Origin: Pirellulales bacterium
Lineage (GTDB): Bacteria; Planctomycetota; Planctomycetia; Pirellulales; Thermoguttaceae
Assembly: GCA_016931995.1 (NCBI GenBank)
Contig: JAFGDS010000089.1
Span: forward strand, 1-46,363
Length of the DNA: 46,363 nt
Direction: 5' to 3'
The notes under the pieces are model-generated. The model searched no databases and was not told the origin of the DNA. It saw only the letters and a list, made by a program, of their open reading frames with translations. Position 1 is the first letter of the stretch. Each line of letters opens with the position of its first letter. Positions 79 through 14,351 of the stretch are shown in pieces. The translations under genes were made by a program, and so were the position numbers.

Positions 79-855
79 TCAACGGCGCGATCGGGCCGCC
101 AACAACGCCGCGCCCACGGCGCAGGTGAGTTGGGGCTCGGGGGCAATGGCAACCGGGTGGCTAAAGGCCGCCCCCAGCGCGGCGTCCATCCCGGGAATCA
201 GGGCCACGCCGCCGGTGAGGACGATCGGCGGGGTCACCTGGCCGCCGGCCATCGCGGCCAGCCGCGCGGCAATCGCGGCCTGAACGCCCGCCGCCAGGTC
301 CTCAAGCGTCGCCCCTTGCGCCAACAGGCCGATGATCTCCGTCTCGGCGAAGACGACGCACATGCTGCTGATCCGCGCGGGGTTGCGGCTCGCGCCGGCC
401 AGCGTCCCCAGCTCGGTCAACCGGACGCCCAACTGCGCGGCGACCACTTCCAGGAATCGGCCGGTGCCGGCGGCGCAGCGGTCGTTCATCGCGAAGTCGC
501 TCACGCGCCCCGTGCCGTCCAGCCGCAGGAGTTTGCTGTCCTGGCCGCCAATGTCGATCACGGTCCGCGCGCCGGGCGCGACCTGGGCGATGCCCGCCGC
601 CTGGCACGTGATCTCCGTGATCGTCTCGTCCGCGTCGCGGATGAGCTTGCGCCCGTAACCCGTGGCCACGACCGCCCGCACGTCCCGCCGGTCAAACCCC
701 GCTTCGGCCAACAGCTTGCCCAAGAGTTGCCGGGCCAGGGCGTTCTGCTCGACGCCCTGGTCGGCCACAACCGAAGCGATCACGCGTCGGGTGGTCGCGT
801 TGACCAGAGCCGCTTTCAGCGTCCGCGAGCCCGCGTCAATGCCTGCAAAAATCAT
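79..855 (-). CDS. ATP-dependent [4Fe-4S] activator of 2-hydroxyacyl-CoA dehydratase/double-cubane reductase (HgdC/BadF/YjiL family)
   Basis: This is a 258-residue ASKHA-fold ATPase. The family forms a homodimer bridged by one [4Fe-4S] cluster and uses ATP hydrolysis to push a single low-potential electron into a partner dehydratase or reductase. Visible motifs are the phosphate-1 loop GIDAGSRTLKAAL at residues 5-17, the IDIGGQDSK loop at 100-108, and the two cluster cysteines in NDRCAAGTG (C127) and SSMCVVFAE (C166). These are the positions known for HgdC of Acidaminococcus. The length is typical of the family. The ATG at 855 overlaps the stop of the upstream dehydratase gene as ATGA, so the two are probably translationally coupled. 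The reading frame stays open far upstream, but that part is antisense-like low-complexity Arg/Gly sequence and is not homologous. It is the last gene of the block and the only activator in it. Confidence 0.93.
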   Translation of the reverse strand: MIFAGIDAGSRTLKAALVNATTRRVIASVVADQGVEQNALARQLLGKLLAEAGFDRRDVRAVVATGYGRKLIRDADETITEITCQAAGIAQVAPGARTVIDIGGQDSKLLRLDGTGRVSDFAMNDRCAAGTGRFLEVVAAQLGVRLTELGTLAGASRNPARISSMCVVFAETEIIGLLAQGATLEDLAAGVQAAIAARLAAMAGGQVTPPIVLTGGVALIPGMDAALGAAFSHPVAIAPEPQLTCAVGAALLAARSRR

Positions 856-2234
856 GGTGTCCTGCCGTCTCTGACGGTTTCGACCAGGGCTTCCAGCCGC
901 GTTCGCAACGTCGGCTCCATCGCGTCGGTAAGCGGGGGCACTTCGACTTCGACCACCGGCACGCCGAGCCGTTGCCGGACGACCTCGCCAATAATCGCGC
1001 CCTCCAGCGAGCAGTGGCTCGCCCCGGGGATCCGCGAGATCACCAGGGCCTCGGCCCCAAACGCCCGCATGTCGCGGCACACCCGCTCCGCCCGATCGAT
1101 TGGCGAGCCGACCATGAGATCGGCCAAGGCCGACCGGGCCAACGCTTCCGTCGGAGGCACATCCTCGTCGATCGGATCCAGGGCATGCGAAAACAGATAC
1201 TCCGTTCCACACACTCGCCCCCCGGCGTCCTCCAGCACGTTCATCGCCCGAAGATCCGCCACCGGATTGAGCCAGAACACGCGGACCGCCTCGGGCGCGA
1301 CCGCCCCCACGCCGGCGCGCTCGCGCCGCCGCGCCTCCTCCACCAATTCGCCCAGCACGGCCATACATTCATTTTGATCGCTGCAAAAGTGAATGGCCAG
1401 CATCTCGGCGATGAGCATTTCCAGGGCCGGCAGGGGGGCGGCCGGCGCGGAGTAGGCCATTTGACGCAATTGGCCCAAGAGCCGCCGGACCCGATTCGCC
1501 CGGCCGATCCCCTCGGCCAGCCGCGCGTCGGTCAACTCCTGGCCAGCGAACCGCGCAAGACACTGCCGCACCCGCTCCAGTTCGTCGCGAACGAAGGCCA
1601 CTTGTGCCGCGGGGGCCACGCATCCGCCGGGCAAATGCACCGCGTCCTCCCCGGCCTCCGGCGGCCGGCGGTGCGGGATCTCCCACCAGAAGATCGGATG
1701 GCCCATCCCTTCGAGCCGCTGCGCGATCGCCGACAGGTCGTCGCACGTGGCCCCCACGCTGGCGATCAAGAGATCCGGGATCGGAAAATGCGCCTGGCTC
1801 TCGAACGCACCGAGCATCGCGCGGACCGGGCAAAACGACTCGTCCACGCCCAGCCGGTCGGCAATCGCCAACAGCCCGTCGCTTTGCTCCATCACGCACG
1901 GAATCCACCACGCTCCGTCCGGATAGAACGCGACGACCCGATCCAGCGAATAGGCCATCACGGGCACCGTGCCCAGGTCCTTGAGCACGCCCACCAGCCG
2001 CGCGCCCCGCCGCCGGGCGTCCGCCAGCCGGTCTTCTTCGGAAAGCAGGAAGTTCCACAGCCGCAGCGCCGCCGGCGAGTCGTCCATCTGGAGCTTGCAC
2101 AGCCGCAGGTTGCCGTCGTCCACGTGTCGCCCGAGCGGACCGCCGTACGACGGTTCGCGAAGGCCCCCGGCCACCAGCGCGTCGTAGCGCCGGTCCCACT
2201 GGTCGAGCGTGAGCTTGCAAGGGAGTTCGGTCAT
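852..2234 (-). CDS. 2-hydroxyacyl-CoA dehydratase-type subunit, long form (HGD-D family)
   Basis: This is a 460-residue cytosolic protein of the HgdA/HgdB/BcrB/BcrC superfamily, whose members hold a [4Fe-4S] cluster and receive electrons from the activator. Three cysteines fall in family-like contexts: WWIPCVMEQ (C113), ESFCPVRAM (C135) and VGATCDDLS (C164). This fits one cluster per subunit. The C-terminal part has the second Rossmann-like lobe, with SRIPGASHCS near its end. The start was set at ATG 2234 (MTELPCKL), because the open frame before it has repeat-derived sequence and no homology; no strong Shine-Dalgarno is visible there. The gene overlaps the activator by 4 bp and lies 86 bp after the 336-residue subunit. 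The two probably form the heterodimer. The substrate cannot be read from the sequence: acyl-CoA dehydration and aryl-CoA reduction are both family options. Confidence 0.85.
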   Translation of the reverse strand: MTELPCKLTLDQWDRRYDALVAGGLREPSYGGPLGRHVDDGNLRLCKLQMDDSPAALRLWNFLLSEEDRLADARRRGARLVGVLKDLGTVPVMAYSLDRVVAFYPDGAWWIPCVMEQSDGLLAIADRLGVDESFCPVRAMLGAFESQAHFPIPDLLIASVGATCDDLSAIAQRLEGMGHPIFWWEIPHRRPPEAGEDAVHLPGGCVAPAAQVAFVRDELERVRQCLARFAGQELTDARLAEGIGRANRVRRLLGQLRQMAYSAPAAPLPALEMLIAEMLAIHFCSDQNECMAVLGELVEEARRRERAGVGAVAPEAVRVFWLNPVADLRAMNVLEDAGGRVCGTEYLFSHALDPIDEDVPPTEALARSALADLMVGSPIDRAERVCRDMRAFGAEALVISRIPGASHCSLEGAIIGEVVRQRLGVPVVEVEVPPLTDAMEPTLRTRLEALVETVRDGRTP

Positions 2235-2259
2235 GAAGGAAACGTCATGCAAGTGCTTT

Positions 2260-2278
2260 GCGAAGCCGCAAGCGGCTT
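2260..2278. repeat. Dispersed hairpin repeat GCGAAGCCGCAAGCGGCTT, copy 1
   Basis: This 19-bp sequence contains the self-complementary core AGCCGCAAGCGGCT. It lies between the two dehydratase-subunit genes. Near-identical copies are found at 21357-21375 and 44888-44905, always beside a gene boundary. Confidence 0.7.
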
Positions 2279-2320
2279 GTCGGCCATGCGGCAACAACTC
2301 ACTGGAAGACCTACCAACCA

Positions 2321-3331
2321 CTAACCACGAGCCACTAGCCACCGCCCACCGCGCAACATCTCAAGAAACGCTTCGATCCGGCCAATCGCCTGCGCGGGCG
2401 CGCCGGCGTCGGCGTGCAACATGTCCAAGTCAATCAGGGGCAGCCCGGTCGCCTGGCGAATCCGCTCAATCTCCGCGTGCCACAGGTCGCAGAAGACGTG
2501 CCGACGCAGCAAAATACCTCGGGCGCCCCGCGCCGCCAGCCGGGGGCGAAGCCACTCAAACAGCCGGTCGTTGGGTCGGCGAAACACGTCCGGGATCGCG
2601 TCGAAATACGCCCGCCGCAGGGCTTCCACCGGATCGTCGCCCGGCCACTCGGCCGGCAGCGCCGCGGCAAGCGTCCGCTGGCCTCCTTCGCTGGCGTCCA
2701 AGACAATCCGCCCGCCCAACTGGGGCAACGCGTCGAGAATCGCCAGATCCTCTTCCACCAGCGGCCCGCCCAGCAGCGCCAGCGGCACGCCGTCCGTTGC
2801 GTTTTCGACGGTTGACGGGCGCGGATGCGCTCGCCCTTCGCCGCGCACGGCGGCGACCATCTCGGCGTATTGCCGCGAGGATTGGACCGGCCACGCGTCG
2901 CGGACCGATCCACGGGCCGCGTCGTAGCGGGCAAACGTCGCCCTGGTTTCATCCGGCGACGGCGACCGCCCTCCCAGATCGACCAGAAACCGCCCCAGCC
3001 GCCGCAGTTCGTCGCAATACAGCCGGCCCGCGGCGTTGCTCTGCCAGGTTGACGGCAGGTTGAAAAGGAACGTCGGCCAATCCGTCCGGGCTTGCAGAAC
3101 CGCCGCTCCGTAGCGCATGGGATCGCATGCGGTGGTGAGGACCACGGCATGAAGATCCTCCGATGCGATGACCTGCTCGACCAGCGCGCCGGCAAAGGGA
3201 CAAAGCCCTCGATGCGTCGTGGCCAAGTCCCGCGCGCCGGCCGCGCGGGGCCGCAGCCATCGGGGCGACCAGCCAAACGCGGCAATCCATTCCGGCGGGA
3301 CAAAAGGACTGCAATAGCCAACGTTGTTCAT
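2321..3331 (-). CDS. 2-hydroxyacyl-CoA dehydratase-type subunit, short form (HgdB/BcrC-like)
   Basis: This is a 336-residue protein of the 2-hydroxyacyl-CoA dehydratase/benzoyl-CoA reductase family. The N-terminus reads MNNVGYCSPFVPPEWIAAFG, the classical family opening. Candidate cluster cysteines are C7, C44 (HRGLCPFAG) and C69 (TTACDPMRY). The FNLPSTWQ segment that follows is also typical. Second-lobe motifs (LGGPLVEED, IVLDASEGG) are present with Ser/Asp rather than Cys, so a single [4Fe-4S] site is expected. The ATG at 3331 overlaps the stop of the double-cubane gene in an ATGA junction, showing tight coupling. The likely partner is the 460-residue subunit downstream. The frame remains open upstream through the double-cubane gene, but that is a shadow of the other frame. 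Confidence 0.85.
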   Translation of the reverse strand: MNNVGYCSPFVPPEWIAAFGWSPRWLRPRAAGARDLATTHRGLCPFAGALVEQVIASEDLHAVVLTTACDPMRYGAAVLQARTDWPTFLFNLPSTWQSNAAGRLYCDELRRLGRFLVDLGGRSPSPDETRATFARYDAARGSVRDAWPVQSSRQYAEMVAAVRGEGRAHPRPSTVENATDGVPLALLGGPLVEEDLAILDALPQLGGRIVLDASEGGQRTLAAALPAEWPGDDPVEALRRAYFDAIPDVFRRPNDRLFEWLRPRLAARGARGILLRRHVFCDLWHAEIERIRQATGLPLIDLDMLHADAGAPAQAIGRIEAFLEMLRGGRWLVARG

Positions 3332-4506
3332 GCCGCGCGCACGGTCTCGAATAAGGCCTCGACGCGCACGGCGATCCGCGCCGAATCGGAGGGCGAATAA
3401 TCGGTCTCGATCCGCAGGTACGGAATGCCTAGCTCGTCCTCGGCCAGTCGTCGCACCCGGCTGGTCTCCACGTCGTACGTCAGACACGCTTGCCAAATGA
3501 GCTCCACGACGCACTCCGGCCGAAACCGCGCGGCCAGCAATCGCAACAAGTCGAGCCGGCGGTCGTTGCGCGTCATCACGGAGCACGGCAGATGGAAGTA
3601 TTTCTCGGCCAGGGCCTCGATCGGATCCGCCGCGGCCACGTCCACGTCGTCCACAATGGGCTTCACGCCCGTGCAACTCTCCGTCGCCACGACCAGCCCC
3701 CCGTGGCCCTCGATGATCTCCAGCACGCGCTCGGCCCCGTGTGCCATGGGCACGCCCGTCATCAACACGCGCACGGGCTGGCCGTTGCCGCGGCACGTCT
3801 TGGGCTCCGCCAACAGAGCCAGGGCCTTCTCGTATTGGGTAAAGTCGGCCTCGATCCCCGAAATGCTGCTCTTGAAGTTCAAGAGCCGCCGGCCGGTCAA
3901 TCCCGGCCGGTCGGCCGCCATCGCGTCGGCCAGCCGGCGCCGCAGCGCCCGCTCGCGGTTCATCGCGCCCGCCGCCTCGCGAATCTTCTCGTCGGGAATC
4001 GTCACGGAGAAACGCTCCGCCAGAAACGCGCGGAACTTCCGCAGCTCGGCGACCCAATGGGCCCGCGCGTCGGCGTCGTCCACCTTCTGCGGCAATTCGA
4101 GCACGTACACCGGCCGCGTCTCGGCCAATAGCTCGTACATCTTCTTCTTGCCGTCGCAGGTGGTCTCGCCCACCACGAGATCGGCCATTTCCAGAAACGG
4201 GTTGGCCCGCTCGACATGGTAGCCAAACGTGGATTTGATGAGCGGGCAGAGATTGGCCGGCAGATGCTTTTCGGCCGCGGGAATCATGTCGGCCGATCCG
4301 CCGCACAAACACACGGGCACGGCTCCGGCCGCCATGATAAGCTCGCGCGGCGTGTATTCGCAGAGGATGCCCACGATGGGCCGGCCCTCGGCCTTGGCCG
4401 CCGTGGCATACGCCAGACAATTGGGAATCATCCTCGCGAACCACGCGCGCGGCGTGTCGCCCGCCGCGGCGTCGGACGATTCCCCCGAGCAACAGGAATC
4501 CGCCAT
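3328..4506 (-). CDS. Double-cubane-cluster anaerobic reductase (DCCP/YjiM family)
   Basis: This 392-residue protein closely matches the pattern of E. coli YjiM and of Carboxydothermus double-cubane cluster protein. Those are homodimers with an [8Fe-9S] centre that reduce small substrates when fed electrons by an ASKHA ATPase. All six expected cysteines are in place: GILCEYTP (C49), ANLCPLIKS (C87), GETTCDGKKK (C117), TESCTGVK (C278), HLPCSVM (C308) and WQACLTYD (C341). The start ATG at 4506 is preceded by an excellent Shine-Dalgarno, GGAAGGAG. The short CC-containing N-terminal tail (ADSCCSG) is extra. Its stop overlaps the next subunit gene (ATGA). The physiological substrate of this family is unknown. 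The identification is strong from the motif set, while the assignment to a pathway is not. Confidence 0.92.
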   Translation of the reverse strand: MADSCCSGESSDAAAGDTPRAWFARMIPNCLAYATAAKAEGRPIVGILCEYTPRELIMAAGAVPVCLCGGSADMIPAAEKHLPANLCPLIKSTFGYHVERANPFLEMADLVVGETTCDGKKKMYELLAETRPVYVLELPQKVDDADARAHWVAELRKFRAFLAERFSVTIPDEKIREAAGAMNRERALRRRLADAMAADRPGLTGRRLLNFKSSISGIEADFTQYEKALALLAEPKTCRGNGQPVRVLMTGVPMAHGAERVLEIIEGHGGLVVATESCTGVKPIVDDVDVAAADPIEALAEKYFHLPCSVMTRNDRRLDLLRLLAARFRPECVVELIWQACLTYDVETSRVRRLAEDELGIPYLRIETDYSPSDSARIAVRVEALFETVRAA

Positions 4507-4523
4507 GCTCTTCTCCTTCCGCT

Positions 4524-4594
4524 GTGGGAGGCGACTCCCGTCGCCGACTACGATTTGATTGCAGGACAATCGGCGACGCGAGTCGCCTCCTACA
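4524..4594. repeat. Intergenic inverted repeat (GGAGGCGACTC...GAGTCGCCTCC)
   Basis: Two arms of about 24 bp, 4524-4547 and 4570-4594, are imperfect reverse complements (GGAGGCGACTCCCGTCGCCGA against its mate) around a 22-bp loop. The element sits between the methyltransferase stop and the Shine-Dalgarno of the double-cubane gene. It could fold in the transcript and moderate read-through or message stability. Confidence 0.75.
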
Positions 4595-4619
4595 CGCTGT
4601 CATGCAAAGCCTGACCTGC

Positions 4620-5438
4620 CTACTGCCTGCCTACTGCCTTCTTCCGCGCAACGAACAGCCCTTGGGCGATCTTGCCCGCGTGGGCCAACTGCTGCATGAA
4701 CGTCATTTCGCCGGCGAGACCCTGGAACAACGCGCGGTCGAAGCCGACGATCCGCAGCGCGTCGTACGTGAACTGCATACCCAACATGTTCAGGTACAGG
4801 TCCACGTGCGGCGCGAACTGGCCGGTGTCCTCGTGGGCGAGCGCCTCGCAGCCGCCGTCCAACAACAGCGCGGCGTAGCCATCGAGATCCTGCACGTTGG
4901 GGAACTTCATGAACGCGAGGAGACGCAGCGACTCCTCCGGCGCGAGCCCCGCCGGGCCCTCGACCCAGTCGGTGAACGCCACCATGCCGCCGGGCTTGAC
5001 CAGGCGAATCGCCTCCGCGATCAGTGCCGGCTTATCGACCACGTAGCACCAGGCGTCCTCGCCCCAGACGAAATCGGCCGCCGCGTCGGGCAGGCCCGTC
5101 CGGCACGCGTCGCCCACCGTGAACTCGATCCGCGCGGCAAGCCCTTCCTGTCGGCACCGCTCCCGCCCGATCTCGACCACGGCCTCGGTCGCGTCGACGC
5201 CCTGCATCCGCTCGACGTTCCGATCGCGGACGAGGAACCGCATGCCCTCGCCGGTGCAGCAGCACAGATCGACGCCCTTCATGCCTGGACCAATGCCGGC
5301 CCGATCGGCCAATCGGATCGACGACTGCATCCCGCCGATGTGGATCTGCCGGCCCATCACGAGTTCCCAAAGATGGAACTCCGGCCCGCTGTAGACGCCC
5401 TGCACCTGCGCAAGCCCAACGCCGTTGCCGCCCTTCAT
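4620..5438 (-). CDS. Class I SAM-dependent methyltransferase
   Basis: This is a 272-residue cytosolic methyltransferase. The N-terminal segment GPEFHLWELVMGRQIHIGG resembles the substrate-side region of sarcosine/dimethylglycine-type N-methyltransferases. Motif I is unusual, VDLCCCTGEG at 56-65, with three consecutive cysteines before the Gly-rich loop. Later motifs (FTVGDACRTGLPD, DFVWGEDAWCYV, LVKPGGMVAFTDW) are standard. ATG 5438 was chosen because AGAGGC lies at Shine-Dalgarno distance; the frame is open further up but runs into the repeat region. It is upstream of and co-oriented with the reductase genes, 113 bp away across a hairpin repeat, so it may be the first gene of that operon. 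The substrate cannot be assigned. Alternatives are a biosynthetic methyltransferase unrelated to the reductases. Confidence 0.85.
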   Translation of the reverse strand: MKGGNGVGLAQVQGVYSGPEFHLWELVMGRQIHIGGMQSSIRLADRAGIGPGMKGVDLCCCTGEGMRFLVRDRNVERMQGVDATEAVVEIGRERCRQEGLAARIEFTVGDACRTGLPDAAADFVWGEDAWCYVVDKPALIAEAIRLVKPGGMVAFTDWVEGPAGLAPEESLRLLAFMKFPNVQDLDGYAALLLDGGCEALAHEDTGQFAPHVDLYLNMLGMQFTYDALRIVGFDRALFQGLAGEMTFMQQLAHAGKIAQGLFVARKKAVGRQ

Positions 5439-5545
5439 CAGATGCCTCTTTGTTCGCGGTTGCATGAAAGGACACCGGGATGCCACCATCGTAGCCATCC
5501 CGGATCCCTTGTCAAGAGTCCCGCGATCGGGCGGAAAGCGCTCGA

Positions 5546-5645: not shown

Positions 5646-5774
5646 GTGCCACTGGCTCCGCCAGTGCATGAATTCCAGTGTGCCGTTGCGCTGGCAAAGC
5701 CAGTGGGTCCCGCGTCCCACTGACTCCACCAGTGCATGACGGCATGCTCTTGCACTGGCAAAGCCAGTGGCACT
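5646..5774. repeat. Cluster of four CACTGGC/GCCAGTG hairpins (REP/BIME-like), copies a-d
   Basis: Four short palindromes of the type CACTGGCAAAGCCAGTG occur at 5646-5667, 5689-5706, 5716-5735 and 5751-5774. Neighbours lie in opposite orientation, giving a mosaic like a bacterial interspersed element. They lie in the leader of selA. Paired copies of the same family occur at 7252-7317 and 9173-9234. The flanking words GAGCG...GCGAGTGTGCC are shared with the second site, so the mobile or duplicated unit is longer than the hairpins. Confidence 0.85.
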
Positions 5775-5804: not shown

Positions 5805-7229
5805 ATGTCCACATCCTCCCGGCAGGACCGATTACGCCAAATCCCCGCCGTCGAGGTCGTGTTGCGGGATCCCGCCATCGAAGCGTTGGCCCCGCGCGTG
5901 CCCCGCGTCGTCTTGATCGCCGCCGTGCGCGCCGCGATCGCGCGCGCCCGCGAGCGATTGCTGAACGATCGCGACGACGCGCCCGATAAGAACGCGCTTC
6001 GAGACCACGTCGTCGCCGACGCCGCGCGGCAAGCCGCCGCCAACATGCGGCCGCAATGCGGCCGCGCGATCAACGCGACGGGCATCATCCTGCACACGGG
6101 CCTGGGCCGCGCCGTGCTGCCGCGGGCGGCGGTCGAGCGAATTGCCCACGATTTGGCCGGCTATTCCATCCTGCAGCTCGATCTGGAAACCGGCCGGCGC
6201 GGCCGGCGCGACGCCCGGATCGCCTGGCTTGCCGCGATGCTCACCGGGGCCGAGGCCGCCACCGTGGTGAACAACAACGCCGCGGCCACCACGTTGGTGC
6301 TCAACACGATCGCCGCCGGCAAGGAGGTGATCGTCTCCCGCGGCCAACTGGTCGAAATCGGCGGCTCGTTCCGCCTGCCCGAGGTGATGGCCGCAAGCGG
6401 CGCGAAGCTCGTCGAGGTGGGCACGACGAACAAGACGCATCCGCGCGACTACGAAGCCGCGATCACGGAAAACACGGCCGCGATCATGCGGGTTCACCCG
6501 AGCAACTTCCGCATCGTCGGTTTCACGGCCGAAGTGCCCCTGCCGACGCTGGCTCAAATCGCCCGCGCCCGAGGGCTGGTGCTCTACGACGACCTGGGCG
6601 CCGGCCCGCTGGTGGACGTCGCGCCGTTCGGCTTTCAGCCCGAACCGCTCCTGGCCGAGTCGATCGCCGCGGGCGCCGACCTGGTCAGTTGCAGCACGGA
6701 CAAGCTCATCGGCGGCTCGCAGGGTGGCTTGATTCTGGGGCGGACGAAACACATCGATGCCGTGCGAAAAAACCCCTTTGCGCGGATCGTCCGCGCCGGC
6801 AAGCTCACGCTCGCCGCGCTCGAGGCGACGCTCGATCTGTTTCTCGATCCCGCGCAAGCTCGGCGCGACGTGCCGACGCTGCGGATGCTCGCCCGCGGGC
6901 TGGACGACCTCGACCGGCAAGCCCGGCGGATTGCCCAGACGCTGGCGGATCGCGGACTTCCAGCGGATGCCGACGTGATCGACGGGTCGTCGCAGATGGG
7001 CAGCGGCTCGCTGCCCACGCAGGACCTGCCGACCCGGCTGGTCGCGATTGCTCCCCGCACCGGCTCGCCCGACGAGCTGGCCCGGCGCCTGCGTCTACAC
7101 CGCCCGCCGGTTATCGCCCGCGTTCAAGACGACCGCGTGTTGATCGATCCGCGAACGCTGCTCGACGGCGACGACGAGATCCTCATCGAGGCGCTGGCGA
7201 GCGTTTTGGAGTCGCGTGGCCCGCTCTGA
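5805..7229 (+). CDS. selA: L-seryl-tRNA(Sec) selenium transferase (selenocysteine synthase)
   Basis: This is a 474-residue PLP enzyme that converts seryl-tRNA(Sec) to selenocysteyl-tRNA(Sec) with selenophosphate. The N-terminal tRNA-binding region starts RQDRLRQIPAVEVVL and is followed by the family signature NATGIILHTGLGRAVL. The PLP lysine is K300 in CSTDKLIGGSQGG; most relatives have GGPQ, here GGSQ. VEVGTTNKTHPRDYE and RVHPSNFRIVGF are also characteristic. The length is normal (about 460-475). ATG 5805 was preferred because it begins the homologous sequence; the open frame before it is inside the hairpin repeats. Its presence predicts selB, selD and tRNA-Sec elsewhere in the genome, none of which was seen here. 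It is transcribed divergently from the methyltransferase/reductase block. Confidence 0.96.
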   Translation: MSTSSRQDRLRQIPAVEVVLRDPAIEALAPRVPRVVLIAAVRAAIARARERLLNDRDDAPDKNALRDHVVADAARQAAANMRPQCGRAINATGIILHTGLGRAVLPRAAVERIAHDLAGYSILQLDLETGRRGRRDARIAWLAAMLTGAEAATVVNNNAAATTLVLNTIAAGKEVIVSRGQLVEIGGSFRLPEVMAASGAKLVEVGTTNKTHPRDYEAAITENTAAIMRVHPSNFRIVGFTAEVPLPTLAQIARARGLVLYDDLGAGPLVDVAPFGFQPEPLLAESIAAGADLVSCSTDKLIGGSQGGLILGRTKHIDAVRKNPFARIVRAGKLTLAALEATLDLFLDPAQARRDVPTLRMLARGLDDLDRQARRIAQTLADRGLPADADVIDGSSQMGSGSLPTQDLPTRLVAIAPRTGSPDELARRLRLHRPPVIARVQDDRVLIDPRTLLDGDDEILIEALASVLESRGPL

Positions 7230-7251: not shown

Positions 7252-7317
7252 TGTGCCACTGGCTCTGCCAGTGCTGCATCCTCGGTGCGCGAGGGCACTG
7301 GCAAAGCCAGTGGCACC
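7252..7317. repeat. Paired CACTGGC/GCCAGTG hairpins, copies e-f
   Basis: Two facing hairpins, 7252-7275 (CACTGGCTCTGCCAGTG) and 7293-7317 (CACTGGCAAAGCCAGTG), make an inverted pair. The pair sits directly after the selA stop and before the convergent YTV gene. It may act as a two-way 3'-end structure. Confidence 0.85.
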
Positions 7318-9172: not shown

Positions 9173-9234
9173 GCGCCACTGGCTCTGCCGGTGCGCGGCG
9201 CGTGTGCAGGGGCACTGGCGAAGCCAGTGGCACA
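9173..9234. repeat. Paired CACTGGC/GCCAGTG hairpins, copies g-h
   Basis: The facing hairpins at 9173-9194 and 9209-9234 belong to the same family as those around selA. They lie just past the stop codon of the 950-residue secreted protein gene. Confidence 0.8.
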
Positions 9235-9238
9235 CTGC

Positions 9239-12091
9239 TTACCGCGCCGGCCACGCGCCGGCAGGCTGCGCGGCGGTCGCCGGGGCAATCGGCGCGAGCA
9301 CGTCGATCGTGACGTCGTCGATCCACGCCTCGCCCAGCCCGGCCAACGCGAACGTCACCTGCATCGGCCCCGATTGCGTGGCAAATCGGTATAGCGTGAA
9401 CGGCTGCCAATCGGTCGTCTCGCCGATCCGCTCGGCCAGGGCCCGCCCGCTCATCGAGTCGAAGATCATCAGCCCGTCCACGCTGCCCGTGATCGGCGTG
9501 GGCACGTGTACCCAACCGTGGATCCGCACCAGCGCGCCCAGCTCGACCGAAACCGCCGGGCTCGTGATCCAGATCGGCGGCGTCTCGACGAGTGTGGGGG
9601 AGTTGTCGGGCTGCGTCGATCGAGCCAAAAGGCGCAGGCCGCTCGCGCCGGTGTGCGAGGCCTCCGGAATCACGTCCGCGCGCGCCTCCACGCCCTCGAC
9701 AACGTGTTGATAGTGGCGCCATCCGCCGGCCATCACGCTCTCGATGCTCTCAAAGCCGCCGCCGGGCAGCCCCCGCGGATGAAGCTGCCACGAGCGGACC
9801 TCCTCGACCAGGCTGTAGTGCCAGGGAAGCGTCGAGAAACAGACGGTCGCCGGGCTGGCCATCGGCGAACGCAACGACGCCACGGCCGCTTGCCAGTGCG
9901 CCCGCTCCACCAGCCGTAACCGCCGCGTTGCCCGCTGCGCCTCGAGCCGCGCGGCGGCCCAATCCCGCGCGGCCAGCGCCGCGCCGCAGTCGGCCAGGTG
10001 CCGATCCGCCGCGGCAAGATGGTTCTCCGGCTTCCACGCGCCCGCCGGACTCCGTGACAGAAACTGTCCCACCTCGCCCACCACCTCGCGCTTCCTCGCG
10101 GCGAGTTGTTGCTCGAGCGCCGCCGCGCGAGGTCCCGTCGCCGCGGCCCGACCGCGCAGGCTGTCCACCACCCGCGGGTCTTCCGTGAACAGCACGAGAC
10201 TGCTCAGCGAAAACTCCTCGAGCGTCACCTGCGTGCCGCCGAGTCCTCGCCGGCTGTCCCGCACGGGGCGAAGCCCGCCGGGCGCCAGTTCGTACGCCCG
10301 GGCGGAATCGGACACTCCAGGCACGGTAAACGTCACGACGCTGCCGGCCGACTGACCCGGTACGTACTGCGCCCCGGAGCCGATCCACAGCGGCGCCAGC
10401 AATTGCGAACGGTTGTAGCGGAACAATGTCCCGCCCAACTCGGGTTCGTTGCTCGAAACGGTTTCGACCAGACCGCCCGTGGCAACCCAGGGGCGAATCA
10501 ACTCGATCTCCAGATTCAAAAGCTCCACGGCCGCGGCCCTGGCCCGGGTGGCCGCGTCCGTCCCTTCGAGCGAACTGCCCGACTCAAACAAGAGCCCTCG
10601 ACTGCCGGCGGCAATGGCCGTGTAGGCCACGAGCCGAATCTGCTCGCTGCCCACCAGCGGAGGCGGCGAACGTCCCCGGCCCGCCACCATCCACTGCTGC
10701 CGCAACGCCCACGAAGGCTCCGTTTGAACCGTGCTCCAGATCGTCTTTCCCGGTCGGGCTAGACGGGGCCGCTCGTGGATCCACGTGCCGTAGTCGCTCA
10801 ATTCCAGACTCGTCGCCAGGGGCGATTGCCCCACCATCACCACATCGACGTGCCGGCTTAATCCGCGGAGATCGGCCTCGGCGTGGGCGACCAGCGGCCG
10901 GCCGCCCGCCCGATCCGCCGCGCGGATCTGCCTCGCCCGCTGCCGGACGTTCTCGATATCCTGCTCCGTGATTCCCCAGCCCAGGTCCCATGCCGCGACC
11001 GGCGCGTACGCCGGACCGACCTGCGGCCGCGGCGCCCCCAGCGGCCCCGCCGGATCCGTCATCATCTCGACCGGCGGCGGACACACGACCAGAAGCCCCT
11101 CGCGGTCCGCCTCGGCCAGCAGCCGCTCGTCCGCTGGGCGGTTCAGCCAGACCGCGTTGAACCCCAATTGCTTGATCGTCGCCAACGATTCGCCCTGGTG
11201 CTGTATCGCCCGAAGGAACGTCGGTTGGCCATCGACCAACAGCCCGGAGCCGGCCAATTCGATCCGCCGCGACGACGTCGCCGCCGTGGCCTGCGTTCCC
11301 GTGTACGGAGCGTTCGCGTCCAGGGGCGTTGCGACCGTCCCGCCGCGGGTCTCGCCCGTGGAGTTGGCCGACGAACCGGCCACCTCCAAGTCGTCGATCC
11401 ACACGTTGGTCACGCCCGGCCCCCCGTACACGTTCAGCACGATCCGCTCGACGTACGCCCCGCGGGCGTCCACCTCGGGACCCAACTGCGTCCGCAACGC
11501 CTCCACCTGCCGCGCAAGCAACTCCGGGAGGCCCTCCAGCCGAAGCTGCTGCCAACGGCCAACCTCGGTATAGGTGGCGCCGGCAAGGAGGGTCCGCACC
11601 GGCTGTCCGCTGCGGGGATCGGGTGTGCTGGGCAGGGCCACCTCGGCAAACACGCCAAGGCCCGACCGGTCGGAACGGATCCACACCGTCGGCCTGAGAC
11701 CCTGGGTTACGAGGGGCCGGCCGGCGTCGTGGGCGAAGAGAACCTGCGTCCCCCCCTGGGCGAGAACCGCGAGTCGCTCCGACCCGCGTCCGGTATGCGC
11801 CTGGCCCGCGACCCGCTGGTGGAGCTGTATCTGATAGGGCGAGTTGCCCCCGGCGTCCCGCCACGTGATACCCTGGCCCTCGAAGCCCTCGTGCCACGCT
11901 GCCGCCGGCGCCGCGCCGAGTGTCGCGTGAATCGCGAACCAAAGCAGCGCCAGCCCAAGACGCCATGCCCAGCCGGACGCGGCACGTGGGGACTGTCCCG
12001 GCCTCCGCGTCAACGGAAACGGGACCGTCCCCTTCGACATGGCCTTAAGCGTGGCGTTGGGGCAACATGGGTCATAGCTCAGGCGCTTCAT
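9239..12091 (-). CDS. Large secreted glycosidase-like (TIM-barrel) protein with binding domains
   Basis: This is a protein of up to 950 residues. After a hydrophobic export segment (LGLALLWFAIHATLGAAPAAAW, about 45-66) comes a jelly-roll-like module (ITWRDAGGNSPYQIQ to NVWIDDLEV). A domain typical of GH2/GH5-like barrels follows: LLVDGQPTFLRAIQHQG, LGFNAVWLNRP, ADREGLLVVCPP, AAGSRGLLFESG. The last 180 residues form another carbohydrate-binding-like domain (GGFESIESVMAGGWRHYQ, TGASGLRLLAR, EAWIDDVTIDV). Catalytic acids cannot be assigned by eye, so activity is uncertain; the family looks planctomycete-specific. The first in-frame ATG is 12091, while ATG 12040 (MSKGTVPF) has AAGG at a better distance and may be the true start. 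Codons between 12040 and the export segment run through a dispersed inverted repeat. Confidence 0.8.
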   Translation of the reverse strand: MKRLSYDPCCPNATLKAMSKGTVPFPLTRRPGQSPRAASGWAWRLGLALLWFAIHATLGAAPAAAWHEGFEGQGITWRDAGGNSPYQIQLHQRVAGQAHTGRGSERLAVLAQGGTQVLFAHDAGRPLVTQGLRPTVWIRSDRSGLGVFAEVALPSTPDPRSGQPVRTLLAGATYTEVGRWQQLRLEGLPELLARQVEALRTQLGPEVDARGAYVERIVLNVYGGPGVTNVWIDDLEVAGSSANSTGETRGGTVATPLDANAPYTGTQATAATSSRRIELAGSGLLVDGQPTFLRAIQHQGESLATIKQLGFNAVWLNRPADERLLAEADREGLLVVCPPPVEMMTDPAGPLGAPRPQVGPAYAPVAAWDLGWGITEQDIENVRQRARQIRAADRAGGRPLVAHAEADLRGLSRHVDVVMVGQSPLATSLELSDYGTWIHERPRLARPGKTIWSTVQTEPSWALRQQWMVAGRGRSPPPLVGSEQIRLVAYTAIAAGSRGLLFESGSSLEGTDAATRARAAAVELLNLEIELIRPWVATGGLVETVSSNEPELGGTLFRYNRSQLLAPLWIGSGAQYVPGQSAGSVVTFTVPGVSDSARAYELAPGGLRPVRDSRRGLGGTQVTLEEFSLSSLVLFTEDPRVVDSLRGRAAATGPRAAALEQQLAARKREVVGEVGQFLSRSPAGAWKPENHLAAADRHLADCGAALAARDWAAARLEAQRATRRLRLVERAHWQAAVASLRSPMASPATVCFSTLPWHYSLVEEVRSWQLHPRGLPGGGFESIESVMAGGWRHYQHVVEGVEARADVIPEASHTGASGLRLLARSTQPDNSPTLVETPPIWITSPAVSVELGALVRIHGWVHVPTPITGSVDGLMIFDSMSGRALAERIGETTDWQPFTLYRFATQSGPMQVTFALAGLGEAWIDDVTIDVLAPIAPATAAQPAGAWPAR
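11988..12032. repeat. Inverted repeat GGGGACNGTCCC type inside a coding start
   Basis: The arms GGGGACTGTCCCGGCCTCCG and the complement of CGGAAACGGGACCGTCCCC face each other over a 6-bp loop. The element encodes part of the N-terminal region of the large secreted protein (GTVPFPLTRRPGQSP). Confidence 0.65.
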
Positions 12092-12878: not shown

Positions 12879-14351
12879 ATGAACCAACCCACCGCCGAGC
12901 AGATCGCCGAGCGAGCGTTCGATCTAGGGTTGGTGGACGAGCGGCAGCTTCAAGAGCTCTGGGGACTCTTGGGCAGCCATCACGTCGATCCCGACGAGTT
13001 CGTCCAGCTCATGGTCCGCCGCGAGATGGCGACCAACTACCAGCTCGACCGTCTGCTGAAGGGCGAGCGGACCGGTTTCTTCTTCGGCGACTACAAGGTG
13101 CTCTACCTCGTCGGCACCGGCACGTTCGCCCGGGTCTATCGCGCGGTCCACCGCCAGACCGGCAATATCGTGGCCGTCAAGGTTCTCCGGAAACGCTATA
13201 GCGAAATCCCCCAGCACGCCCGCCAGTTCGTCCGCGAGGGACTCCTGGGCAAGTCCTTGCGGCACAAGAACATCGTGCCCATCTACGAGGTCGTCTCCGA
13301 AGGCAACACCCATTTCCTCGTGATGGAGTTCGTCGAGGGCCGTAATCTCCGCCAATTCATCAAGATCCGCGGCAAGATCGAACCGCGCGAGGCCTTGCGG
13401 CTGATGATCGACGTGACCGCCGGGCTGAAGTACGCCTTTGCCCGGGCGCTGACCCATCGCGACCTGAAAACCAGCAATGTCCTCGTGTCGAGCCACGGGA
13501 CCGCCAAGCTCGTGGATTTTGGGCTGGCCGCCATCGACGAAAGCCAGGTGGACGACGCCCCGCCCGACATGCTCAATAGCCGGACCATCGACTACGCCGC
13601 CCTCGAACGCGCCACCGGCGTTCGACGCGACGATTCCCGCAGCGATATCTACTTCCTCGGCTGCATCTTCTACCACATGCTCACGGGCGAGCCGGCCCTG
13701 AACGAAACCCGCGACCGCATGCAGCGGCTCACGCGGACGCGGTTCTTCGACGTGGTGCCGATCCAAAAGGCCGACCCCTCGATCCCCGCCTGCGTGTCGA
13801 TCGTGGTCAATAAGGCGCTCATGTTCGACCCCGAGCGGCGCTACCAGACCCCCGCGGCCGTCCTTTCCGATCTCCGCGCCGCCGCCAAGCGGCTGGACGA
13901 CGAGGCCGGCGCCGAGGGCCGCGACGACGCGGCCGCCCCCAAGGCCGCCCCCACGGCCGAGGCCGGCGCGCAGCGGTCGGTCATGGTCGTCGAGTCCAGC
14001 CCGCAGATGCAGGACATCTTCCGCACCGGCTTCAAAAAAGCCGGCTATCGCGTCCTGCTCACCGGCGACCCCGAACGGGCCCTGGCGCGATTCCTCCAGG
14101 ACCCCGCCACGGCCGATTGCGTCATCTTCAACGCCCAGGAAATCGGCCAGGCGGCCCTGGAGTGCTTCAACCGGCTGGCCGAAAGCGCGGCGACGGAAAG
14201 CGTTCCGGCGGCCCTGCTCCTGGACGAGGGCCAATATGGCTGGCGCGAGCAGGCCCGCACCGCCCAGCACCGCGTCGTCGTGAATATGCCGATCACGATG
14301 AAGAAGCTCCGGGGGCTCCTTGCCCATCTGGCTCCCCCCGTTCAGGCGTAG
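12879..14351 (+). CDS. Ser/Thr protein kinase with C-terminal degenerate receiver domain
   Basis: This is a 490-residue cytosolic protein with no membrane segment. Residues 1-70 form the helical extension common in planctomycete kinases (MATNYQLDRLLKGE). The kinase domain follows, with glycine loop GTGTFARVY (near 78), AVKVL (Lys near 100), HRDLKTSN (193-200), DFGLA (213-217) and SDIYFLGCIFYHMLTGE. Catalytic residues look intact, but the APE position reads AALE. Residues about 367-485 have receiver topology (SVMVVESSPQMQDIF, FKKAGYRVLLTGDPERAL). The acidic pair is replaced by ES, the phospho-Asp by Asn (CVIFNAQEIG) and the KP lysine by Asn (VVNMPITMKK), so it cannot be phosphorylated in the usual way. 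It probably serves as a protein-interaction module. Partners are unknown; no phosphatase or two-component partner adjoins. Confidence 0.92.
   Translation: MNQPTAEQIAERAFDLGLVDERQLQELWGLLGSHHVDPDEFVQLMVRREMATNYQLDRLLKGERTGFFFGDYKVLYLVGTGTFARVYRAVHRQTGNIVAVKVLRKRYSEIPQHARQFVREGLLGKSLRHKNIVPIYEVVSEGNTHFLVMEFVEGRNLRQFIKIRGKIEPREALRLMIDVTAGLKYAFARALTHRDLKTSNVLVSSHGTAKLVDFGLAAIDESQVDDAPPDMLNSRTIDYAALERATGVRRDDSRSDIYFLGCIFYHMLTGEPALNETRDRMQRLTRTRFFDVVPIQKADPSIPACVSIVVNKALMFDPERRYQTPAAVLSDLRAAAKRLDDEAGAEGRDDAAAPKAAPTAEAGAQRSVMVVESSPQMQDIFRTGFKKAGYRVLLTGDPERALARFLQDPATADCVIFNAQEIGQAALECFNRLAESAATESVPAALLLDEGQYGWREQARTAQHRVVVNMPITMKKLRGLLAHLAPPVQA

Follow-up and report, generated by a model that had tools for sequence, protein, structure and literature searches.

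A selenium-linked gene module of Planctomycetota joining a double-cubane cluster protein, an HGD-D pair and one activator ATPase: a candidate reductase for selenium supply

Contig JAFGDS010000089.1 of a Pirellulales bacterium (assembly GCA_016931995.1; genome 5.43 Mb, 99% complete), analysed here over its whole length of 46,363 bases (the window), carries at one end genes for a double-cubane cluster protein (DCCP), two further subunits of the HGD-D family, named P2 and P3, and an HgdC-type ATPase activator. An earlier sequence-only reading had placed these four genes in one unit at 79-4506, and all of them lie there, on the minus strand. We found that the conserved unit extends past 4506 to a gene for an S-adenosylmethionine (SAM)-dependent methyltransferase (MT), followed by the divergent selA. 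The methyltransferase and selenium genes, which that reading missed, give the best clue to function, and the main result lies outside the stretch that it covered: this is a selenium locus composed of MT, DCCP, P2, P3 and the activator, often joined by selD and selA/selB. We regard a role of the module in selenium metabolism as highly probable. The whole reading, in which the unit is an ATP-driven reductase for selenium supply, is evenly balanced in our judgement, as is the release of selenium by reduction, while a methylated substrate is put forward tentatively.

The linkage was surveyed in a scan of one genome per species across 84,980 species, which gave 156 relatives. The best 80 of the 156 by P3 similarity yielded 78 named loci distinct from the 17 same-phylum stretches treated below, so that it is the close relatives that are described (L093 and L097 were dropped as duplicates of L039 and L038). 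Sel genes were counted anywhere in a locus, with the loci of sufficient flank as denominators, and the identities of selA, selB and selD were confirmed on examples only. Physical linkage to the selenocysteine genes is seen in the window, which holds selA, and in 49/78 of the relatives, where selA, selB or selD lies in the fetched stretch (40/51 loci of Planctomycetota and 9/27 elsewhere). With sufficient flank, selD is present in 28/49 loci and selA or selB in 22/36; among loci with at least 6 kb on either side a sel gene occurs in 20/28. The chance expectation is about 1-2% by our own arithmetic, for three sel loci in a 4-Mb genome. The commonest full order, found in 13 loci, is selB-selA and then MT-DCCP-P2-P3-activator-selD. 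In 35 loci selD lies 3' of the activator and is read in the same direction, with no more than 310 bp between the two in 31 (measured between profile edges). Other orders found across the phyla are selA-selD-selB-MT-..., selD-MT-... and activator-selA, and since the arrangements vary between phyla, the link is not that of one frozen cluster. It is this linkage to sel genes in several phyla that suggests a selenium role for the DCCP-bearing module.

At the genome level, SelD is encoded in 17/17 other module genomes and in that of the Pirellulales bacterium, and two genomes of the same family without the module have no SelD (0/2) and no SelA or MT match. SelA was detected in 16/18 module genomes vs 246/392 overall (Fisher p 0.02, uncorrected for phylogeny). 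As for the SelD proteins themselves, some possess a C-terminal CMD/AhpD domain (L138:958-2670, in the genome of the Pirellulales bacterium, L045:5923-7545 and L065:12225-13823), and a cysteine-rich stretch is present in the two N-termini of such proteins that were inspected. Locus L056 holds two SelD-type genes, at 10601-11590 and 13221-14261, flanking selA on one strand.

A P3 search of 392 genomes of the phylum returned 36 with a match at E<=1e-5 and 18, that of the Pirellulales bacterium included, at E<=1e-60. In the 17 stretches taken from the other strong-P3 genomes, P2 adjoins P3 in 17/17, MT and the activator are each found in 15/17, and DCCP lies within the module in 12/17 and apart from it in the same stretch in 1/17. 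The wider set of 78 loci gives, where the flank suffices, P2 in 72/72, DCCP in 44/52, MT in 47/52 and the activator in 59/65. The four-gene set, whose conservation the sequence-only reading had left to a survey of relatives, is thus kept in distant ones, and one pattern that it named as fatal to its proposal, with acceptors in unrelated loci and separate activators in most relatives, is not what these counts show. Ten phylum labels, taken from the sequence records, occur among the 78 loci: Planctomycetota (51), Verrucomicrobiota (10) and Lentisphaerota (4), two loci each from Myxococcota, Omnitrophota, Armatimonadota and Sumerlaeota, and one each from Riflebacteria, Hydrogenedentota and Kiritimatiellota, with two unassigned.

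MT is a constant partner of P3. It is found at E<=1e-40 in 19/392 genomes, namely in 18/18 with P3 at E<=1e-60 and in one of the 374 others, G271 (Fisher value 4e-30, phylogeny ignored). In G271, DCCP, MT and a partial SelD gene stand together on a 3.2-kb contig, probably a truncated module. The MT protein has two invariant cysteines, C76 and C148, and its best relatives in the PDB are phosphoethanolamine methyltransferases, which implies no substrate. Assignment as an arsenite or menaquinone enzyme was kept low, as the 25 NCBIfam matches all fall far under their cut-offs.

DCCP genes are also tied to selenium genes outside the module. In the same 392 genomes DCCP scores over its cut-off in 21, at 24 places. 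Among the 23 places inspected (G033:C5 was left out), 11 have a sel gene, two of these only by a partial SelB match, and six of the 11 have no P2, P3 or MT in the stretch. Such a standalone DCCP follows SelA-SelD on the same strand in G012, G313 and G062 (the first two belonging to one genus) and SelA-SelB in G324; the loci with standalone DCCPs inside sel operons are L142, L143, L146 and L056. Proximity to selA, judged by eye, was found for 7/24 DCCP places vs 0/21 distant HGD-D relatives (p 0.01). The latter were sub-cut-off HGD-D places with a known selA place among those listed; 12 further places were left unjudged, and two fragments (G318 and G290) were omitted as pieces of module-type DCCPs. 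For 19 of these 21 control places selA is carried by a different contig, and for the other two it shares the contig at a distance of over 300 kb. In Slackia, two HGD-D subunits and an activase appear linked to selenium genes in a STRING table (Table 1 of Lin 2015, PMC5322559, seen in excerpt); in that excerpt the authors propose YedE, YedF, LysR and DUF3343 rather than the HGD-D/activase genes.

DCCP reaches 398.1 bits with the NCBIfam double-cubane model NF040772 (cut-off 350) and aligns over some 350 residues to the solved 6eno and 7yyl, whose cysteines its six ligand cysteines all face. These are the six that the sequence-only reading had picked out (C49, C87, C117, C278, C308 and C341), and they are kept in 15/15 aligned sequences, that of the window included. 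Its view of P2 and P3 as three-cysteine subunits is likewise borne out by the alignments, with a single exception at P3 C408. In P2, C44, C69 and C281 are conserved in 54/54 rows and, in a second set, in 17/17, the window's own sequence included. In P3, C135 and C164 are found in 74/74 and 17/17 rows and C408 in 74/74 and 16/17, while C113 and C284, present in 74/74 close relatives, drop to 15/17 and 14/17 in the wider set. Both subunits combine the HGD-D fold with three cluster cysteines. The activator scores 239 bits with TIGR00241 against a cut-off of 125, and C127 and C166, named in the same reading, fall inside the HgdC motifs. We also considered P2 as a second double-cubane protein and rejected it, as only three of the six ligand positions are kept; C7, close to a further ligand position, is a cysteine in just 5/54 rows.

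AlphaFold2 models built from alignments of 74 (P3) and 54 (P2) sequences reached pLDDT values of 90.2 and 91.5, respectively, and as modelled both proteins have the fold of benzoyl-CoA reductase (BCR) and 2-hydroxyacyl-CoA dehydratase (HAD) subunits. The P2 model is nearest to BzdN and the dehydratase beta subunit (BzdN: Foldseek E 3e-19, TM 0.84; VIA-align Z 33.5, rmsd 2.3 A over 322 aligned residues), and the P3 model aligns with BzdN, DCCP, HadB/HadC, MbdN and BzdO at Z 31-37 across 363-389 residues (VIA-align). Matches of P3 with B12-binding domains fall at Z 7-8.5, a level usual for common arrangements, and were disregarded. Folds and ligands that resemble those of BzdNO, HAD and DCCP are consistent with low-potential chemistry.

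The genome of the Pirellulales bacterium encodes exactly three HGD-D proteins and one activator above the Pfam cut-off. A second activator was sought and rejected: the two other PF01869 matches are sub-cut-off and cover about 70 of 271 positions. The same combination, three HGD-D genes with one activator match at E<=1e-15, recurs in five of the 17 other module genomes (G019, G287, G279, G113 and G243); their completeness is 77-99%, and only 77-87% in three of the five. In the other 12 there are between two and six activator matches, some within frames of more than 1,000 aa, or none that could be dismissed. With three HGD-D genes and one activator per genome, both acceptor types must use the same activator in the six single-activator genomes, barring an assembly gap, which supports the shared electron pump proposed in the sequence-only reading.

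On these grounds we propose that ATP hydrolysis by the activator dimer would drive low-potential electrons, one at a time, into an assembly of HGD-D acceptors. These would be DCCP, with a predicted [8Fe-9S] cluster, and P2 and P3, each with a single three-cysteine site. DCCP may serve as an electron store working with P3, where the open three-cysteine [4Fe-4S] site would probably be where the substrate is reduced. That substrate would be a selenium compound beyond the reach of ordinary thiol reductants, most likely methylated or otherwise carbon-bound, and the product selenide would pass to SelD and then to SelA/SelB. MT may act on the same selenium metabolite, either by turning a selenoether into an activated selenonium ion or by disposing of surplus selenide. 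Two genomes, G124 and G169, have a corrinoid protein, a RACo/AcsV-like activator and URO-D methyltransferases inside the module, and these genes, taken together with an importer whose binding protein is weakly sulfonate-like and a NapH-like ferredoxin found near some modules, suggest a methylated or organic selenium substrate. In its most specific form, in which the DCCPs of this clade are selenium-mobilising reductases and make up with P2/P3, MT and one ATPase a composite enzyme that breaks C-Se bonds at very low potential, the selenide then passing to SelD, the proposal is rather unlikely.

Several observations weigh against a selenium-supply reductase. SelA is widespread, so its presence alone is weak evidence, and the module genomes G290 and G050 are without SelA among the matches listed. 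No sel gene was found in the fetched stretch of 29/78 named loci, some of which are short contigs; beyond Planctomycetota the linkage is limited to the minority of loci given above, and to 0/4 in Lentisphaerota. The selD gene of the Pirellulales bacterium itself resides on a different contig, away from the contig end. Likewise, 12/23 DCCP places, including those of G126, G235 and G248, have no sel gene in stretches of 3-20 kb (the window has 46 kb). The corrinoid genes occur in only two genomes of one family (f72), neither with a module DCCP. A SAM methyltransferase adds methyl groups, which has no evident purpose in a selenium-releasing pathway. Substrate, activity and clusters are all predictions here.

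The relation between the two acceptor types bears on the mechanism. The sequence-only reading had offered, next to a branched reductase, a three-component enzyme with DCCP as the relay to the dimer, and this fares unevenly. In its favour, a scan based on domain scores showed that P3 and DCCP of G033 and of G050 share one stop-free frame (stop to stop, 881 and 887 aa, respectively), which favours a joint enzyme or complex over two unrelated branches; misassembly is an alternative source of these frames, as is, for G050, an internal ATG that acts as a second start. On the other hand, no DCCP was detected in G169, a genome of about 90% completeness, and in G284 and G062 it lies outside the module, therefore it is optional and not an obligatory relay everywhere, and P2/P3 can do without a linked DCCP. 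Nor would a relay be new in itself, since transfer from a double cubane to a [4Fe-4S] site has already been proposed within BzdNO (PMC11971306, in excerpt). The strongest competitor of a joint enzyme, which we hold to be a real possibility though short of an even chance, is a branched pump in which DCCP and the P2/P3 heterodimer are separate enzymes for two selenium-handling steps and have only the activator in common. It would account for P2/P3 without DCCP in 8/52 loci and in G169 and for DCCP without P2/P3 in sel operons, and it agrees with known DCCPs being homodimers with a reductase partner (7yyl; PMC11971306, in excerpt). The fused frames of G033 and G050 speak against it, as do the two 4-bp overlaps within the operon. 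These overlaps are at the DCCP/P2 and P3/activator junctions; the description of the genes as tightly overlapping holds for those two of the three junctions and fails for P2-P3, which are separated by 86 bp.

The HAD/BCR fold and three-cysteine sites of P2/P3, together with the CoA esters on which known pairs act (PMC11971306, in excerpt), would also fit a role in fermentation or in the breakdown of aromatics, as an acyl-CoA dehydratase or aryl-CoA reductase that lies near sel genes through a shared anaerobic life. We consider this improbable, as all HAD and BCR subunit equivalogs stay below cut-off. In the NCBIfam scan no HAD equivalog is listed for P2 or P3 and no BCR equivalog for P3; P2 scores 18.5 for bzdN, and DCCP reaches 74 of the 454 bits required for bzdN and 48 of 421 for BcrC. 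Moreover, the eight annotated among 16 recurrent neighbour clusters include no CoA ligase, CoA transferase or acyl-CoA dehydrogenase, and the distant HGD-D relatives are not found near selA (the 0/21 given above, for places with a known, listed selA, by eye). Another explanation turns the link to selD around, with selenophosphate needed for the assembly of a cluster or cofactor of the reductase that itself contains selenium. A labile selenium cofactor does occur in molybdenum hydroxylases (PMC11448449, in excerpt), and selD stands within 310 bp of the activator in the 31 loci mentioned; yet the selenocysteine genes selA or selB are linked too (22/36 loci), and DCCP has its six ligands where 6eno has its cluster site, which makes this explanation highly improbable. 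Selenium detoxification, in which MT, a SAM enzyme with invariant C76 and C148 and a constant partner, forms methyl selenides, which are volatile, from selenium that the reductase maintains in reduced form, is just as hard to credit given the linkage to the assimilation genes selD/selA/selB and SelD in the 18 module genomes tested.

Among known systems, the solved 6eno and 7yyl, which we take to be DCCP/DCCP-R of Carboxydothermus, and the presumed DCCP and activator pair YjiM/YjiL of E. coli have the six DCCP cysteines in common with the module, along with an activator of the HgdC type, whereas the second HGD-D pair, MT and the selenium genes are found only here. E. coli K-12, used as a control, encodes a DCCP-family protein above cut-off. 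In turn, 3o3m and 4eht, presumably the 2-hydroxyacyl-CoA dehydratase HadBC and its activator HadI, are alike in the three-cysteine heterodimer with one activator, and P2 aligns to the beta subunit over the full profile; they differ in that the module has the extra DCCP, MT and sel linkage, and no HAD equivalog for P2/P3. The class I benzoyl-CoA reductase BzdNO/BzdPQ resembles the module in the combination of a double cubane and a three-cysteine [4Fe-4S] site, in having one ATPase module and in its folds, and the double cubane of BzdN has been proposed as an electron store for the three-cysteine [4Fe-4S] site of BzdO (PMC11971306, in excerpt). In contrast, BzdN carries the double cubane within the heterodimer, while here it is on a third protein; each subunit of the pair here has three conserved cysteines, and the BCR equivalog cut-offs are not reached. 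By analogy, the module could be the BzdNO arrangement spread over three proteins. The two different activator subunits of a class I benzoyl-CoA reductase were not found, as the genome has one activator over cut-off.

Selenium-linked methyl chemistry is shared with SdmABC, a dimethylselenide system of a corrinoid protein and two methyltransferases (PMC11097638, in excerpt), and with the type 1 mlp clusters, proposed to recycle methyl-selenium (PMC10418091, in excerpt). The corrinoid protein, its activator and the URO-D enzymes of the G124 and G169 modules recall both systems, but the core here is an HGD-D reductase with a SAM methyltransferase, and corrinoid-protein matches were obtained only in L052 and L053, with none in the window or the other loci scanned (URO-D was scanned in part). 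Methylthio-alkane reductase (PMC12552129, in excerpt) offers an analogy only, as a low-potential metallocluster enzyme that cleaves C-S bonds; it belongs to an unrelated nitrogenase-like family and acts on sulfur substrates. We found no description of the module among the listed titles and abstract openings of the literature searched on selenium with BCR, dehydratase/activase, double-cubane, yjiM/yjiL or methylthio-alkane reductase, which is not proof of absence, and in the selenium review PMC9312934 the words dehydratase, activase and double-cubane do not occur.

Known DCCPs are described as proteins of unknown biological function in the part of PMC11971306 available, and sel linkage in several phyla provides a concrete, testable role for them. 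If the proposal is true, it would be the first physiological role for DCCPs, would open to selenium assimilation a route driven by ATP, would set beside methylthio-alkane reductase a counterpart independent of nitrogenase, and would give an example of an HgdC-type pump serving two kinds of Fe-S acceptor.

The layout in the window is given in Table 1. The contig ends only 78 bp past the activator, which leaves downstream genes out of view.

Table 1. Features of the selenium-linked module and its surroundings in the window.
Feature	Positions	Strand	Basis
HgdC-type ATPase activator, 258 aa, C127 and C166	79-855	minus	TIGR00241, 239 bits
P3, HGD-D subunit, 460 aa, conserved C135, C164, C408	852-2234	minus	PF06050, 126 bits
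P2, HGD-D subunit, 336 aa, three conserved Cys; BzdN/HadC-side fold, incomplete double-cubane ligand set	2321-3331	minus	PF06050, 99 bits
DCCP, 392 aa, six ligand Cys	3328-4506	minus	NF040772, 398 bits; PDB 7yyl/6eno, E ~1e-61
Intergenic gap of 113 bp, MT to DCCP, with inverted repeat	4507-4619	none	
MT (P0005), SAM-dependent class I methyltransferase, start codon uncertain	4620-5489	minus	Methyltransf_11
selA, L-seryl-tRNA(Sec) selenium transferase, divergent from module	5832-7229	plus	TIGR00474, 532 bits (cut-off 268)

The inverted repeat in the gap between MT and DCCP (4523-4594) is 25 nt long and 92% complementary, possibly a terminator or an interspersed element. No tRNA genes were found in the window. 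Paired palindromic repeats of the form ~CACTGGCTNNGCCAGTG are located at 5649-5770, 7256-7313 and 9176-9230, with 14 strand-matches vs 0.14 expected.

The neighbours of the module were surveyed in 95 loci, where open reading frame picking in G+C-rich DNA yields shadow frames, so that the counts are rough. Nine representatives of recurrent neighbour clusters were compared with Pfam together with SelD, and four of the nine stayed without an informative family: those of c0, c6 and c11 fall into none, and that of c7 matches only DUF3034. An ABC importer (ATPase, permease and an NMT1/SsuA-like, weakly sulfonate-like binding protein) is present in 4/95 loci, just upstream of the module in L064 (1214-4041), L090 (3353-6122) and L094 and downstream in L116. 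A NapH-like membrane ferredoxin, a possible electron donor to the module, is encoded nearby in 16/95 loci (e.g., L041:6972-7847 and L045:882-1736). In 22/95 loci we observed a recurrent exported-looking protein, whose representative (L083:4369-5634, 421 aa) has no Pfam or NCBIfam match.

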